From Zunongwangia sp. ESRF-bin46 (GTDB lineage Bacteria > Bacteroidota > Bacteroidia > Flavobacteriales > Flavobacteriaceae), in contig NTLF01000020.1 of the NCBI GenBank assembly GCA_002631855.1, positions 1 to 64,000 on the forward strand: a stretch of DNA of 64,000 nt. Direction: 5' to 3'. Below the pieces are notes generated by a model. That model saw only the letters and a list, made by a program, of their open reading frames with translations. It did not search any database and had not been told where the DNA came from. Below, piece after piece: positions 1 through 7,814 of this stretch. The first letter of the stretch is position 1. Every line of letters begins with the position of its first letter. Made by a program: the position numbers and the translations under genes.

Positions 1-2
1 AT

Positions 3-227
3 ATTGCTGAAAGTGCTATTGACCATCAAAGGGAACATTTTAAAACATTGAGCAAAGATATAACGGATATGGTGGCGATTACAGGAACAAAGAACACACT
101 GTACCAACAATTTTGCCCTATGTACGATAAGGGTAGTGCTTGGTTAAGTACAAACAACGAGATAAGAAATCCATATTACGGCAGTAGAATGCTTAAATGC
201 GGCAAAGTACAAAAGACTATTCAGTAG
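3..227 (+). CDS. C-terminal fragment of a DUF3347-type metal-binding protein (adaptor-like)
   Basis: Open from the left edge of the window; 74 residues are visible before the TAG stop. The end contains a Cys-Pro-Met start ([13 protein letters not shown]), then NEIRNPYYG and a final LKCG. The same layout closes the CusB-like adaptor at 9755-11491 (KCPMANN, WLS, KEIKNPYYG, LTCG), so the two proteins share a DUF3347-type tail thought to bind copper or another metal. Whether the missing front is an RND adaptor or a stand-alone periplasmic metal-binding protein cannot be seen. It is followed by about 490 non-coding bases, so it probably ends a separate transcription unit. Confidence 0.75.
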
Positions 228-318
228 GTAATCCCTTCCCTAAGCATTTTTTGTTGTTCTACTTTATTAGTTAACAGAATACATAAGATGTCCGGAATAT
301 CTTGAGTAGTCATTAAGT

Positions 319-375
319 CCTGTCGTGGGAAGGAAAAATAGATGATGGTTAGTGTTAGTTCCTTCCCAGGTAAGG
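319..375. repeat. Imperfect inverted repeat 1
   Basis: Arms 319-335 and 359-375. The inner nine bases (GGGAAGGAA with TTCCTTCCC) pair perfectly and the outer part pairs with a few mismatches (about 14 of 17). The 23-base loop carries the TGGTTAGTG motif. First member of the four-hairpin array. Confidence 0.7.
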
Positions 376-388
376 CAAAAATTTAAGT

Positions 389-450
389 CCTAATAAGAGA
401 GAGGGTGCATACTTTTTGGTTGGTTAATGAAACCCTTTCTCTTAATTAGG
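389..450. repeat. Imperfect inverted repeat 2
   Basis: Arms 389-406 (CCTAATAAGAGAGAGGGT) and 432-450, which pair along nearly their full length with one bulged base and one mismatch. The loop contains TTGGTTGGTTAATG. Second member of the array. Confidence 0.7.
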
Positions 451-495
451 CACAACAGATTTTGTAAAATAGAAAAGTTGATTTGGTTAGTAGCA

Positions 496-557
496 GCCTG
501 CACAAGGGAGAGGGATTAACCCCCTAAAATAATAACATCTCTCTTCTTTTGTCAGGC
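496..557. repeat. Imperfect inverted repeat 3
   Basis: Arms 496-516 and 537-557. The outer GCCTG/CAGGC pairs perfectly, followed by a purine-rich arm (ACAAGGGAGAGGGAT) facing a pyrimidine-rich arm with several mismatches. The TTGGTTAGT motif lies just outside the left arm here, not in the loop. Confidence 0.6.
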
Positions 558-595
558 AATTTAAAACTTTTGAAAAAGAGAAGTTTAGTGAAGAG

Positions 596-667
596 TACTT
601 GATTTTGGGAGGTGAACATTTGAAATGGTTGATTGGTTAATACCAGTTCGCCTCTCATTATCAAGTA
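596..667. repeat. Imperfect inverted repeat 4
   Basis: Arms 596-617 and 646-667: TACTTGAT and GAGG/GAAC blocks pair over 22 positions with about four mismatches. The 28-base loop carries GATTGGTTAATA. Last member of the array, ending about 50 bases before the small gene at 718. Confidence 0.7.
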
Positions 668-717
668 TAAATTTAGGGTTTCAGCTTCATTAAAGAAAGC
701 AGAAATATAAATAGGTA

Positions 718-858
718 ATGAAAGATTGTTGCAATACAGGTAATAGCACAGCGCAGAATAAGAACCCGTTAAAAAAGTGGTTCAATTATATAATATATAC
801 TGTTATAGCCGTCGTAGTTCTTGGGGCTATGGCACTACAGCTGATAGGGACTAATTAA
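718..858 (+). CDS. 46-residue cysteine-tagged single-pass membrane protein
   Basis: The ORF begins with ATG at 718 and encodes 46 residues. The N-terminus carries a MKDCC motif, then a basic stretch (NPLKKWFNY), then one hydrophobic segment (about residues 25-43, VIAVVVLGAMALQLI). The stop lies 12 bases before the next gene, so it is very likely the first gene of the copper operon. Paired cysteines ahead of a membrane span are compatible with a metal-handling or anchoring role. That is inference; I do not recognise a named family. Confidence 0.6.
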   Translation: MKDCCNTGNSTAQNKNPLKKWFNYIIYTVIAVVVLGAMALQLIGTN

Positions 859-870
859 AAACCATAAAAG

Positions 871-1518
871 ATGAATACAAAACATTTTTTTTCAATCATT
901 TTGGTCATTGCCTTCTTAGGTAGTTTGACCAAAACATTTGCCTTAAATGAAGAACGAAATAGCCTTGATGCAACTGAATTATCGGTCAGCATAGCATCAG
1001 CTGTACAATCAGATTCCGTGAAAGCAGATTTTGATGCGTTTCCCAACCTACACCCTATGGTCGTACATTTTCCCATTGTACTATTGCTGTTAGCGGTGGT
1101 TTTACAATTGATACAGTTGTTTACCTTGAACCGGACAATGGATTGGGTCATCCTCTTAATGGTTGGTTCTGGGTTTATTGGGGCGTATGTTGCCGGAACA
1201 TTTGTGCACCCGCACACAGAAGGACTTACCGAAATGGCAAAAAGCGTACTGGAACAACACGATAAATATGCCGATTGGACACTATGGTCAAGTGCCCTTG
1301 CAGCAGTTCTGAAAATAGTAAGCCTGTTTTGGGTCAAACTAAAGCGTGGTTTTGAAATAGTCGTTTTTTTAGTTATGGCCTTTTCGGCATATTCAGTTTC
1401 CGAAGCAGGGCATTATGGTTCACAGTTGGTATACATAGAGGGAGTTGGCCCACAAGGAAATTATATTGAAACCGAAAGCGAAGAAGGTCACGAAGAAAGT
1501 GATGGGCATTCCCATTAA
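871..1518 (+). CDS. DUF2231-type membrane protein with His-rich tail
   Basis: This 215-residue protein has an N-terminal signal sequence (residues 1-24) and then the DUF2231-like signature LHPMVVHFPIVLLLLAVVL. Three to four further hydrophobic segments follow. The C-terminus is acidic and histidine-rich (EEGHEESDGHSH), which could bind metal. DUF2231 proteins commonly sit near redox and metal-resistance genes, but their function is not established. It lies 12 bases after the small cysteine-tagged gene and 9 bases before the FMN protein, so co-transcription is likely. Confidence 0.8.
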   Translation: MNTKHFFSIILVIAFLGSLTKTFALNEERNSLDATELSVSIASAVQSDSVKADFDAFPNLHPMVVHFPIVLLLLAVVLQLIQLFTLNRTMDWVILLMVGSGFIGAYVAGTFVHPHTEGLTEMAKSVLEQHDKYADWTLWSSALAAVLKIVSLFWVKLKRGFEIVVFLVMAFSAYSVSEAGHYGSQLVYIEGVGPQGNYIETESEEGHEESDGHSH

Positions 1519-4083: not shown

Positions 4084-5310
4084 GTGAGTGAATTCTTAAA
4101 ACAATGGGGCGAAGCTGCCTATACGACCACCGGATTTTTCTGGATGGCACTTTGGGCATTCATCTTGGGCTACATCATCAGTAGTATGATACAGATTTTC
4201 GTGACCGAAAAACGGATGCAGAAAACAATGGGAAAAGATGAATCCAAAAGTGTGCTTTTAGGTATGTTTTTCGGATTTATAAGTAGTTCGTGCAGCTTTG
4301 CTGCGCTGGCGAGTGCTAAGTCTCTTTTCAAAAAGGGGGCAAGCTTTGTCTCTTCAATTGCATTTCTCTTGGCATCGACCAATTTGGTTATCGAATTGGG
4401 GATTATCATTTCTATTTTCTTGGGATGGCAATTTGTTGTTGGGGAATATGTAGGTGGTCTATTGCTCATACTCATTTGTTGGGTTCTCATTCGGATTATA
4501 AATCCCAAAAAACTCATTAAAAAAGCGAAAAATAACCTTGAAGGGAAGGATGATGATGAAATAGATGATTCCAAAGACTGGAAAAAGCAGATACAACAGG
4601 AAGATAGCTGGGTACGGGTCGCGAAGAAGTATAAAATGGAATGGCAGATGGTCTGGAAGGACGTAACAGTAGGCTTTACCATTGCAGGAATCGTAGCGGC
4701 ATTTGTCCCTGATTCATTTTTCCAAACCCTGTTTATCAATAGTGGTCAAGGCAAAACGGATTTTACGTTTCTCGAAGTTCTGGAACATATTGTTGTGGGA
4801 CCAGTTGCCGCATTTTTAACTTTTATCGGTTCTATGGGCAACATACCCTTAGCAGCCCTGCTTTTTGGCAAAGGTGTAAGTTTTGCAGGGGTTATGGCAT
4901 TTATTTTTAGCGATTTGTTGGTTTTCCCCGTACTACGAATTAACGCCAAATATTACGGATGGAAAATGTCCCTTTTTATCTTGTTCCTTTTATTTACAGC
5001 CTTGATAGGGACCTCGTTGGTCTTACATTACTCTTTTGATTTGTTGAGCATTTTGCCAGACCCTTCACAGGTTAAAATTCAAGACAAAGAGCATTTCAAA
5101 ATTGATTACACCTTCTATTTAAATATCGCTTTCCTTGCTATTTCGGCGTATCTCATTTATCTCGGATTTTTCAAGAAAAAAGATGTGGAACACTCAATGA
5201 GTGAAATGGCACCAAAAAGTCCATTACTGGAAACAATATTAAAATATGCGGCCTTCATTTGCTATGTGTGGTTAGCAGGTGGATTGATTGTAAAATTCTT
5301 TATACAATAA
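4084..5310 (+). CDS. Permease of the DUF318/ArsP family
   Basis: 408 residues starting from GTG at 4084; no in-frame ATG fits better and the preceding stop is 10 bases away. About ten hydrophobic segments occur in two groups (residues 15-145 and 195-300, with two more near the C-terminus), separated by a charged cytoplasmic loop (about 145-185, KKAKNNLEGKDDDE). The SSSCSFAALASAKSLF block in the first half and GSMGNIPLAALLFGKG in the second correspond to the repeated permease motifs of PF03773. Family members move organoarsenicals or other small toxic compounds. The substrate here is unknown, but the position directly before copA suggests metal detoxification. Confidence 0.82.
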   Translation: MSEFLKQWGEAAYTTTGFFWMALWAFILGYIISSMIQIFVTEKRMQKTMGKDESKSVLLGMFFGFISSSCSFAALASAKSLFKKGASFVSSIAFLLASTNLVIELGIIISIFLGWQFVVGEYVGGLLLILICWVLIRIINPKKLIKKAKNNLEGKDDDEIDDSKDWKKQIQQEDSWVRVAKKYKMEWQMVWKDVTVGFTIAGIVAAFVPDSFFQTLFINSGQGKTDFTFLEVLEHIVVGPVAAFLTFIGSMGNIPLAALLFGKGVSFAGVMAFIFSDLLVFPVLRINAKYYGWKMSLFILFLLFTALIGTSLVLHYSFDLLSILPDPSQVKIQDKEHFKIDYTFYLNIAFLAISAYLIYLGFFKKKDVEHSMSEMAPKSPLLETILKYAAFICYVWLAGGLIVKFFIQ

Positions 5311-5312
5311 CT

Positions 5313-7814
5313 ATGAAACACAAATATCACATACACGGTATGACCTGCAATGGTTGTAGAAAACACGTTGAAGAAACGCTTTCTAAAGTAGAAGGTGTTA
5401 CCAATGCAACTGTAGATTTAGAAAAAGCTGAAACGACCATTGAAATGGAATCCCATATTCCAATAGAGAAATTTCAAGAGGCGCTTAAAGCCGATGGTGG
5501 GCAATACAGCATCCATCAGAATGGCGAACATCAGCATACCCACGATAAACAGAAGGTTGAGAAACCTAAGGGTAAAGGGACGGGAACATTCTATTGTCCG
5601 ATGCATTGCGAAGGCGATAAAACCTATGACCAACCAGGCGACTGTCCTGTTTGCGGCATGGATTTGGTTGAAGAAGTTAACATAACGGCTACTTCCGACA
5701 CCCAATATACCTGCCCGATGCATCCCGAAATCGTAAAAGACGAACCGGGAAGCTGTCCAATCTGTGGGATGGATTTAGTTCCTATGGAACCCGACCTTTC
5801 CGCAGAGGAAAAGACCTATAAAAAATTACTGAAAAAGTTCTGGATAGCGGTCGCTTTCACATTGCCCATTTTCATTATTGCAATGTCCGAAATGCTGACC
5901 AATAATCCACTTTACGATATTTTGGAATTAAAATACTGGAACTGGATTCAATTTGTACTTTCCATTCCTGTGGTTTTCTATGCCACTTGGATGTTTTTTG
6001 AACGTGCCTACCGCAGTATCAAAACGTGGAACCTCAATATGTTCACGCTTATCGGTATCGGTGCAGGCGTTGCTTGGCTCTTTAGTGTGTTCGGAATGCT
6101 CGTGCCAGATTTTTTCCCTGACCAATTCAAGACCGAAGCGGGTACGGTTCACGTCTATTTTGAGGCGGCTACGGTCATTTTAACCTTGGTATTGCTTGGT
6201 CAAGTCCTCGAAGCTCGTGCGCATAGCAAGACCAATTCAGCAGTCAAGGAACTTTTAAAATTAGCACCGAATAAGGCGGTTAAAGTGGTAGATGGCGAAG
6301 AACAGGAAGTGGCCATCGATAAAATTAAATTGGGCGATATCCTACGTGTGAAGCCGGGCGATAAGATTCCCGTGGATGGGGTTATTACCGAAGGCGAAAC
6401 TTCCATCGATGAATCGATGATTACAGGCGAACCCATTCCAGTAAACAAATCTACCGATGATAAAGTAAGCAGCGGCACTATTAATGGCAATCAATCCTTT
6501 TTAATGAAAGCTGAAAAGGTAGGTTCCGATACCTTGTTATCACAGATTATACAGATGGTCAACGATGCCAGTCGTAGCCGTGCACCCATCCAGAAATTGG
6601 CCGATACCGTTTCGGGATATTTCGTACCAATCGTTGTTATAATCGCTGCTTTGACCTTCGGCATTTGGGCAATTTGGGGTCCGGAACCGGCCTATGTATA
6701 TGCCTTGGTCAATGCCATTGCCGTATTAATTATCGCTTGTCCCTGTGCTTTGGGGCTTGCGACACCAATGTCCGTTATGGTCGGTGTCGGTAAAGGTGCA
6801 CAAAATGGTGTGCTCATAAAGAATGCCGAAGCTCTTGAAAAAATGGATAAGGTAGATACCCTCATTGTCGATAAGACCGGAACGATAACTGAAGGAAAAC
6901 CTACAGTTGAGAAAATGGGATCTTTCGACAACGGTTTTACGGAAAGCGAAGTGCTACAGTTTATTGTTTCCCTTAACAGCCAAAGTGAACATCCGCTCGC
7001 AGAAGCCACCGTAAAATATGGAAAAGAACAAAACGCAGAGTTTTTAAACGCAGATGGATTCAATGCAGTTACCGGAAAAGGGGTTGAAGGTAAAGTGAAC
7101 AATAAGGAAGTGGCTTTAGGCAACGCCAAAATGATGGAACAGGCAAATGCCACGCTTACCGAAGCTATGAAAAACGAGGCACAATCCTACCAAAAACAAG
7201 GGAAAACGGTTTCCTATCTCGCAGTAAATGGTAAGGTTTCTGGCTACGTGGTCATAGGTGATAAAATAAAGGAAACGAGCGCAAAAGCTATCAAGGATTT
7301 GCAGGATAAGGGAATTGCAGTCATTATGCTTACTGGTGATAATCACGACACCGCCCAAGCTGTCGCGGATGAACTTAACCTTGCGGATTTTCAAGCAAGT
7401 ATGCTGCCAGAGAACAAATTACAAGAAGTCGAGAAATTACAAGAGCAAGGCAAGGTGGTTGCAATGGCAGGCGACGGCATCAACGATGCACCTGCACTCG
7501 CTAAAAGTGATGTAGGCATCGCAATGGGAACAGGAACAGATGTCGCCATTGAAAGTGCAGCCATTACCTTGGTGAAAGGCGATTTACACGGTATCGTAAA
7601 GGCAAAAAACCTAAGTGATGCAGTAATGCGCAATATCAAACAAAACCTCTTTTTTGCAATGATTTATAACACGCTGGGTATCCCTATTGCAGCAGGACTA
7701 CTGTATCCGTTTTTCGGAATACTCTTATCGCCAATGATTGCGGCCTTGGCAATGAGCTTTAGTTCGGTTTCGGTAATTGCCAACTCATTACGTCTAAAAA
7801 GTAAAAACATATAA
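5313..7814 (+). CDS. copA: Copper-translocating P1B-type ATPase (CopA) with HMA and two heavy-metal-binding modules
   Basis: 833 residues from ATG at 5313, two bases after the permease stop. An upstream in-frame start at 5259 would lie inside the permease and lacks the metal-binding beginning, so it was rejected. Domains: HMA domain with MTCNGC (C12, C15); two tandem YHS-like heavy-metal-binding modules (about 94-119 and 133-158), each with CPMH and CPxCGMDL; membrane segments; CPC ion-binding motif in IACPCALGLATP (C476, C478); phosphorylation motif DKTGT (D520); SEHPLAE histidine-proline motif; and GDGINDAPAL near 720. This is a Cu(I)-exporting ATPase of the inner membrane. Confidence 0.95.
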   Translation: MKHKYHIHGMTCNGCRKHVEETLSKVEGVTNATVDLEKAETTIEMESHIPIEKFQEALKADGGQYSIHQNGEHQHTHDKQKVEKPKGKGTGTFYCPMHCEGDKTYDQPGDCPVCGMDLVEEVNITATSDTQYTCPMHPEIVKDEPGSCPICGMDLVPMEPDLSAEEKTYKKLLKKFWIAVAFTLPIFIIAMSEMLTNNPLYDILELKYWNWIQFVLSIPVVFYATWMFFERAYRSIKTWNLNMFTLIGIGAGVAWLFSVFGMLVPDFFPDQFKTEAGTVHVYFEAATVILTLVLLGQVLEARAHSKTNSAVKELLKLAPNKAVKVVDGEEQEVAIDKIKLGDILRVKPGDKIPVDGVITEGETSIDESMITGEPIPVNKSTDDKVSSGTINGNQSFLMKAEKVGSDTLLSQIIQMVNDASRSRAPIQKLADTVSGYFVPIVVIIAALTFGIWAIWGPEPAYVYALVNAIAVLIIACPCALGLATPMSVMVGVGKGAQNGVLIKNAEALEKMDKVDTLIVDKTGTITEGKPTVEKMGSFDNGFTESEVLQFIVSLNSQSEHPLAEATVKYGKEQNAEFLNADGFNAVTGKGVEGKVNNKEVALGNAKMMEQANATLTEAMKNEAQSYQKQGKTVSYLAVNGKVSGYVVIGDKIKETSAKAIKDLQDKGIAVIMLTGDNHDTAQAVADELNLADFQASMLPENKLQEVEKLQEQGKVVAMAGDGINDAPALAKSDVGIAMGTGTDVAIESAAITLVKGDLHGIVKAKNLSDAVMRNIKQNLFFAMIYNTLGIPIAAGLLYPFFGILLSPMIAALAMSFSSVSVIANSLRLKSKNI

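Follow-up and report, generated by a model that had tools for sequence, protein, structure and literature searches.

Stem-loops that serve mRNA stability or processing between cistrons occur in polycistronic bacterial transcripts. The hairpins analysed here resemble these elements in lying between the stop and start codons of operons with no U-run, but they conserve loop and basal sequences across genera and are also found behind promoter-like sites. Integron attC sites share with them the imperfect hairpins, the diverged stems and the adjoining genes, whereas the present family lacks the conserved attC core and displays an RNA-type strand bias. Small repeated hairpins before functionally related genes are likewise a feature of mini-ykkC and similar tandem leader RNAs, although their sequence, loop and taxa are unlike those of the present family, which has no Rfam match; the architecture of mini-ykkC is termed suggestive of protein binding in a survey of candidate RNA motifs (PMC2864571). 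Table 1 of that survey also lists a GUCCY-hairpin, a candidate motif of Bacteroidetes and Proteobacteria rated uncertain as RNA and carrying no Rfam accession (Weinberg et al. 2010, PMC2864571). Its name implies a hairpin with GUCCY in Bacteroidetes, and the base of the present family reads GUCCU or GCCCU; on the other hand, the motif extends to Proteobacteria, whereas none of the 68 stretches retrieved with our strict pattern, which may be too strict, was titled Proteobacteria. Compared by name, taxa and ratings only, as that table gives them, the two may be the same. Finally, RbpPg1, an RRM protein of Porphyromonas whose top ligand is a zinc-efflux transcript, provides a precedent in Bacteroidota for metal efflux being controlled after transcription, but RRM_1 proteins are absent here and the passages of that article consulted describe no such hairpin (PMC12119571). 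In the literature searched, we found no description of a hairpin of this kind in a copper or metal context.

Four diverged hairpins precede a copper operon

We analysed a 64,000-nt stretch of contig NTLF01000020.1 from Zunongwangia sp. ESRF-bin46 (the window), position 1 of which is the contig start. Its hairpin array occupies a gap inside a run of same-strand genes, as judged from mechanically called ORFs and incomplete assemblies. The features are listed below, with bit scores from two covariance models (R1, eight units; R2, 45 sequences).

3..227, + strand: C-terminal part of a DUF3347 protein, the upstream neighbour (Pfam PF11827, E 3e-6); the contig end cuts the gene
314..379, + strand: hairpin unit u1, core family member AAGUCCUG...AAGGCA; R1 70.5 bits, R2 68.9 bits; z -4.7
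346..354, + strand: u1 loop motif TGGTTAGTG, from the sequence and an exact motif search
384..454, + strand: hairpin unit u2, core family member AAGUCCUAAU...UUAGGCA; R1 70.4 bits, R2 64.1 bits; z -5.2
421..429, + strand: u2 loop motif TGGTTAATG, from the sequence and an exact motif search
484..492, + strand: motif TGGTTAGTA just 5' of hairpin 3; relatives keep GATTTGGTTAATAGCAGCCTG
492..562, + strand: hairpin unit u3, diverged member AGCCUG...CAGGCAA; z -3.9; most of 20 distinct relatives keep the pairing
592..672, + strand: hairpin unit u4, diverged member UACUUGAUU...UUAUCAAGUA with loop UUGAUUGGUUAAUA; z -7.0
634..642, + strand: u4 loop motif TGGTTAATA, from the sequence and an exact motif search
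718..858, + strand: small 46-aa protein MKDCCNTGN...KKWFNYIIYT, first gene after the array, probably with one membrane span; no Pfam match
871..1518, + strand: DUF2231 membrane protein (Pfam PF09990)
4084..5310, + strand: ArsP_1-type permease (Pfam PF03773, E 3.5e-56)
5313..7814, + strand: ORF of a CopA-like P-type ATPase with an N-terminal HMA motif, assigned by the motifs GMTCNGC (HMA), CPC and DKTGT rather than by a family search

The first-pass annotation had proposed four inverted repeats at 319-335/359-375, 389-406/432-450, 496-516/537-557 and 596-617/646-667, and all arms are present as placed. Folding of 228-717 as + strand RNA yielded -148.3 kcal/mol (z = -7.2 against shuffles), as compared with -115.4 kcal/mol (z = -4.8) for the - strand. 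Each of u1 to u4 beat 1000 of 1000 dinucleotide shuffles, and the array holds four strong non-overlapping 75-nt windows (<= -20 kcal/mol), a number that never exceeded two in 100 shuffles. The motif TGGTTARTR, announced near 346, 421, 484 and 634, was recovered exactly at all four positions; shuffled sequences contained it 0.02 times on average and reached four occurrences in 0 of 2000 trials. The occurrence at 484 is not in the loop of hairpin 3 but immediately 5' of that hairpin. The even layout of about 75 bases that had been described proved wrong, since successive hairpins begin at intervals of 70, 108 and 100 nt. Likewise, the view that the stems differ and are not copies of one repeat holds only as to their divergence, the units being paralogues of one family. 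Indeed, u1 to u3 have in common the basal sequence (G)(Y)CCU...AGGC(A), and u1 and u2 can be aligned via their ends, their 5' bases both reading AAGTCCT(R), their 3' bases AGGCA and their loops GGTT(A/G)GT.

Pairing of u4 is kept in 13 distinct sequences, u4-like units at other loci score 25-29 bits with R2, and the u3 and u4 stems of relatives are maintained mostly by interchange of G-U, A-U and G-C pairs. A DNA-level search recovered the array from the genomes of several relatives. The number of units varies, as indicated by the clean absence of u2 as one unit between conserved u1 and u3 in three genomes (G001, G004 and G036, at L006, L005 and L007, respectively). Another genome (G016) has two such hairpins only, ending 10 nt before a homologue of the small CC protein. 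No Bacteroidota-type promoter was found inside the array region of the window. A search of window positions 1-1000 returned no intrinsic terminator, that is, no stem followed by a U-run, and the T-runs after the hairpins are mostly 1-4 nt long; we consequently discarded a terminator reading. Taken as a whole, the array is probably a conserved RNA hairpin present in four diverged tandem copies within a polycistronic mRNA, where it forms a cis-acting element.

Two further candidates were considered and rejected. Kissing loops between u2 or u4 (GGUUAAU) and u3 (AUUAACC) are possible in the window but are not conserved in relatives, and an upstream ORF in the loop (AUGGUU...) differs in reading frame between members. 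Separately, the loop core UUGGUUAG, present in hairpin loops such as that at window positions 340-360, recalls the D-loop of bacterial tRNAs, probably by coincidence. We also observed that the genome (G000) carries, on its 3.4-kb contig C7, a second copy of the right-hand half of the array together with its genes, 92-97% identical, and that contig C22 of this genome overlaps window positions 1-118 at 98%. Contigs C7, C9 and C22 (L011, L016-L019 and L095) and the left end of the window contain a copper island that is repeated and was split by assembly.

The hairpin family recurs at metal loci of Flavobacteriaceae

The consensus of the family consists of AAGYCCUR, a purine-rich arm, a loop that often contains UUGAUGGUUAGUG, a pyrimidine-rich arm and YAGGCACAA. 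The basal strands AAGYCCUR and YAGGCACAA are conserved and include one bulged pyrimidine, and the loop is large, its motif being absent from some members (L075, L085). As the first-pass annotation had advised, relatives were searched with a covariance model for the same hairpin, and the family was found to recur in many genera beside metal genes. R1 matched 33 of 149 Flavobacteriaceae genomes at a loose threshold (most with E < 1e-6), and R2 matched 61 of 397, with 1-5 copies in each and mostly 1-2. When 395 genomes were sampled evenly across the phylum, seven had a match; six are Flavobacteriaceae, the window's own genome included, and the seventh is a marginal site (L209) that looks like a chance match. 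A strict pattern run over GTDB genomes retrieved 68 stretches, mainly from marine Flavobacteriaceae, in genera that include Leeuwenhoekiella, Zunongwangia, Aequorivita, Dokdonia, Nonlabens, Aquimarina and Galbibacter. Against Rfam 15, no family reached its gathering score at the array: the window gives only a tRNA, and positions 200-800 only weak chance matches. Plasmid and viral collections contained no match. We regard the hairpin as a candidate family of cis-acting mRNA hairpins without an Rfam match.

Several copies are letter-identical across genera, and the long flanks of some are 94-100% identical, which indicates that whole operons moved recently. One of the 68 stretches is titled Membranihabitans maritimus (L165), a species of Saprospiraceae, and its hairpin matches copies from several Flavobacteriaceae genera letter for letter; this occurrence in a record of another family's genus suggests that the copper operon was transferred recently. 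The identity of copies between genera, together with tandem copies and with presence or absence among homologous junctions, could also be read as the marks of a REP- or MITE-like mobile palindrome that sits in the copper island by chance. We consider this extremely unlikely, because the whole-genome search detected two strong copies, both in the array, and relatives have at most 5; moreover, copies are in sense orientation and nearly all at metal loci, and whole-operon transfer explains their spread.

Pairing is constrained and biased to the coding strand

In 83 distinct sequences, 95.9% of the paired cells can pair, as opposed to 42-67% when the partner is slid. Two-sided changes affect 9 of the 13 model pairs, and the covariation score was equalled in 0 of 500 shuffles; here the models were seeded with the window's own units and the alignment tested was fitted to such a model. 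Counts for single pairs are approximate, as the RNAalifold register averages u1-type and u2-type stems, which differ by a one-base shift. The + strand folds better in 79 of the 83 distinct sequences, with 234 G-U pairs on the + strand versus 38 on the - strand, and strong copies are on the same strand as the surrounding genes. Identity within the hairpin is 0.66-0.71 (gaps counted as differences), as compared with 0.34-0.49 at third codon positions of the upstream gene. These computations show that the hairpin is under selective constraint.

Between the two readings offered by the first-pass annotation, a structured leader RNA and structure-selected sites (recombination sites, attC-like or protein-bound hairpins), covarying pairing, + strand bias and metal-gene context speak for structured RNA. 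The recombination or attC-like part of the proposal found no support. Alignments place AAGYCCUR and YAGGCACAA at the hairpin base, where no attC core (GTTRRRY/RYYYAAC) was found; the best integron integrase match in the genome (TIGR02249) scored 120 bits against a curated cut-off of 265, with weak matches in all 14 controls too, and each genome holds 1-5 copies. What might still suggest a recombination site, or a module joint for cassette exchange, is the variability of the genes 3' of the hairpin and the clean loss of one unit in relatives. Collinearity does frequently stop at the 3' edge of the hairpin; for instance, two loci (L068, L058) are 99% identical to a third (L179) until 6 nt past the hairpin, where a different gene follows before CopA. 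However, among 53 distinct recent 3' breaks, only 6 fall at the hairpin edge, 32 in other intergenic positions and 15 in ORFs, and 6 of 53 is about the expectation for one junction among several, so we give the hairpin no special role in exchange. In view of this, and of the absence of cassette arrays and the G-U bias typical of RNA, a recombination function seems highly improbable. Genes come and go at the junctions, and the hairpin remains with its upstream neighbour. The sequence comparisons support a structured mRNA element, and support neither an attC, a REP nor a terminator reading.

Hairpins lie between conserved upstream and variable downstream genes

Nearly all copies are on the coding strand of copper or metal operons, and most follow either a gene for a protein with a haem-binding domain (PF14376) or the DUF3347 gene (PF11827) that comes after it. 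The genes 3' of the hairpin encode CopA, an ArsP_1 permease, an HMA protein or a small protein starting MK(D/E)CC. Indeed, the first ORF after the hairpin starts M..CC at 56 of 112 sites, and homologues of the product of window positions 718-858 follow the pattern MK[DE]CCK...KKWFNYIIY; this product is a candidate small copper-handling protein. The next start codon is often 10-17 nt past the hairpin, and within 20 nt of it at 29 of 112 sites; the hairpin touches the preceding stop codon at 30 of 112. In arrays, the later units (u3, u4) occupy the distance to the next gene, and in two genomes (G172, G078) hairpins divide blocks within long operons.

Four copies precede a TolC/HlyD/RND efflux operon and have unrelated genes on their upstream side, such as that of an ISL3 transposase at L077. 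At these four RND sites, a CTTTA-N6-CTTTAGA direct repeat and a TAnnTTTR box lie ~8-35 nt 5' of the hairpin. The repeat is reminiscent of response-regulator sites, and the two may serve metal efflux as a regulator-binding box and a promoter. With both just 5' of the hairpin, the RND message would begin at or close to the hairpin. A fifth site, next to a DUF347 gene (L085), has similar repeats farther from the hairpin. Homologous RND operons have similar promoter-like sites without a hairpin (L213, L214) or a hairpin that has decayed (L211). As a side observation, CTTTA-N6-CTTTAGA repeats with a period of ~11 bp occur before RND efflux operons at L075, L077, L205, L206 and L085, and also at L211-L214, with TAnnTTTR following them.

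Among the genomes with close homologues of the haem-binding protein, most have the hairpin; in the remainder it is a diverged copy (L218), altered (L216), reduced to remnants (L217) or absent. Its absence or decay at the homologous junctions L217, L219-L223 and L211 indicates that the hairpin is not essential to the operon. At one further locus (L083), the conserved basal strand has decayed and no metal gene was seen downstream, a single case that favours a downstream role.

The constancy of the upstream haem-binding/DUF3347 pair and the variability of the downstream genes also fit a role at the 3' end or in processing. The hairpins would then be plain intercistronic stability or processing elements, which shield the upstream haem-binding/DUF3347 message at its 3' end, or the downstream one at its cleaved 5' end, and set stoichiometry with no sensing or specific partner. 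The frequent overlap with the upstream stop codon, the separation of blocks in the long operons of G172 and G078 and the lack of a terminator signature are all consistent with such elements. Nonetheless, we deem this explanation unlikely, as basal strand and loop sequences are conserved beyond the needs of stability alone and the hairpin also occurs immediately after the promoter-like sites of RND operons, where the upstream genes are unrelated.

A proposed role in cis on the downstream metal gene

We infer that the hairpin most likely acts in cis in the mRNA, where it would control how the downstream metal gene is translated or how stable its transcript is. The closeness to start codons and to the promoter-like site points to the downstream gene as the target, and a factor that recognises the hairpin is suggested by the conserved loop and the bulge at its base. 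Accommodating these features, the hairpin would act in cis within the message of a mobile operon for copper handling in marine Flavobacteriaceae. It would flag where the downstream cistron begins, typically at 10-17 nt upstream of the start codon, or else lie near the 5' end of an efflux transcript. A putative protein or RNase would recognise it, thereby altering translation or decay of the downstream cistron, and repeated units would add dose. That a trans factor recognises specifically the loop and the basal bulge is a tentative proposal, which we hold possible but somewhat doubtful.

A direct response of the hairpin to its signal would be an alternative to a reader. The association with copper and metal genes, the tandem copies and the position near start codons would all suit an RNA that responds to a metal or metabolite in the manner of a riboswitch, with copper or a copper-stress signal sensed by the hairpin itself. 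Yet this is a single hairpin with a large variable loop, in which neither an alternative structure nor an expression platform was seen, and small repeated hairpins more resemble protein-binding sites, making a sensor of this type very unlikely.

With regard to the reader of the cis-acting hairpin, we considered an RRM_1 protein, the obvious RNA-binding candidate in Bacteroidota, and dismissed it, as neither this genome nor 146 of 149 genomes of the family encode one; the reader would hence be something else. A broader scheme, rather unlikely in our estimate, is a post-transcriptional copper and metal regulon in which a putative dedicated RNA-binding factor, or metal status, reads one to four hairpins and tunes translation jointly, with no RRM protein involved. 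If true, it would cover CopA, permeases, HMA proteins, small CC proteins and RND pumps.

How Bacteroidota regulate genes after transcription is poorly understood, and defence against copper is usually ascribed to DNA-binding regulators alone. The covariance model can be used to annotate these copper operons, and the candidate family provides a handle for finding RNA-level metal control and its reader in these bacteria.
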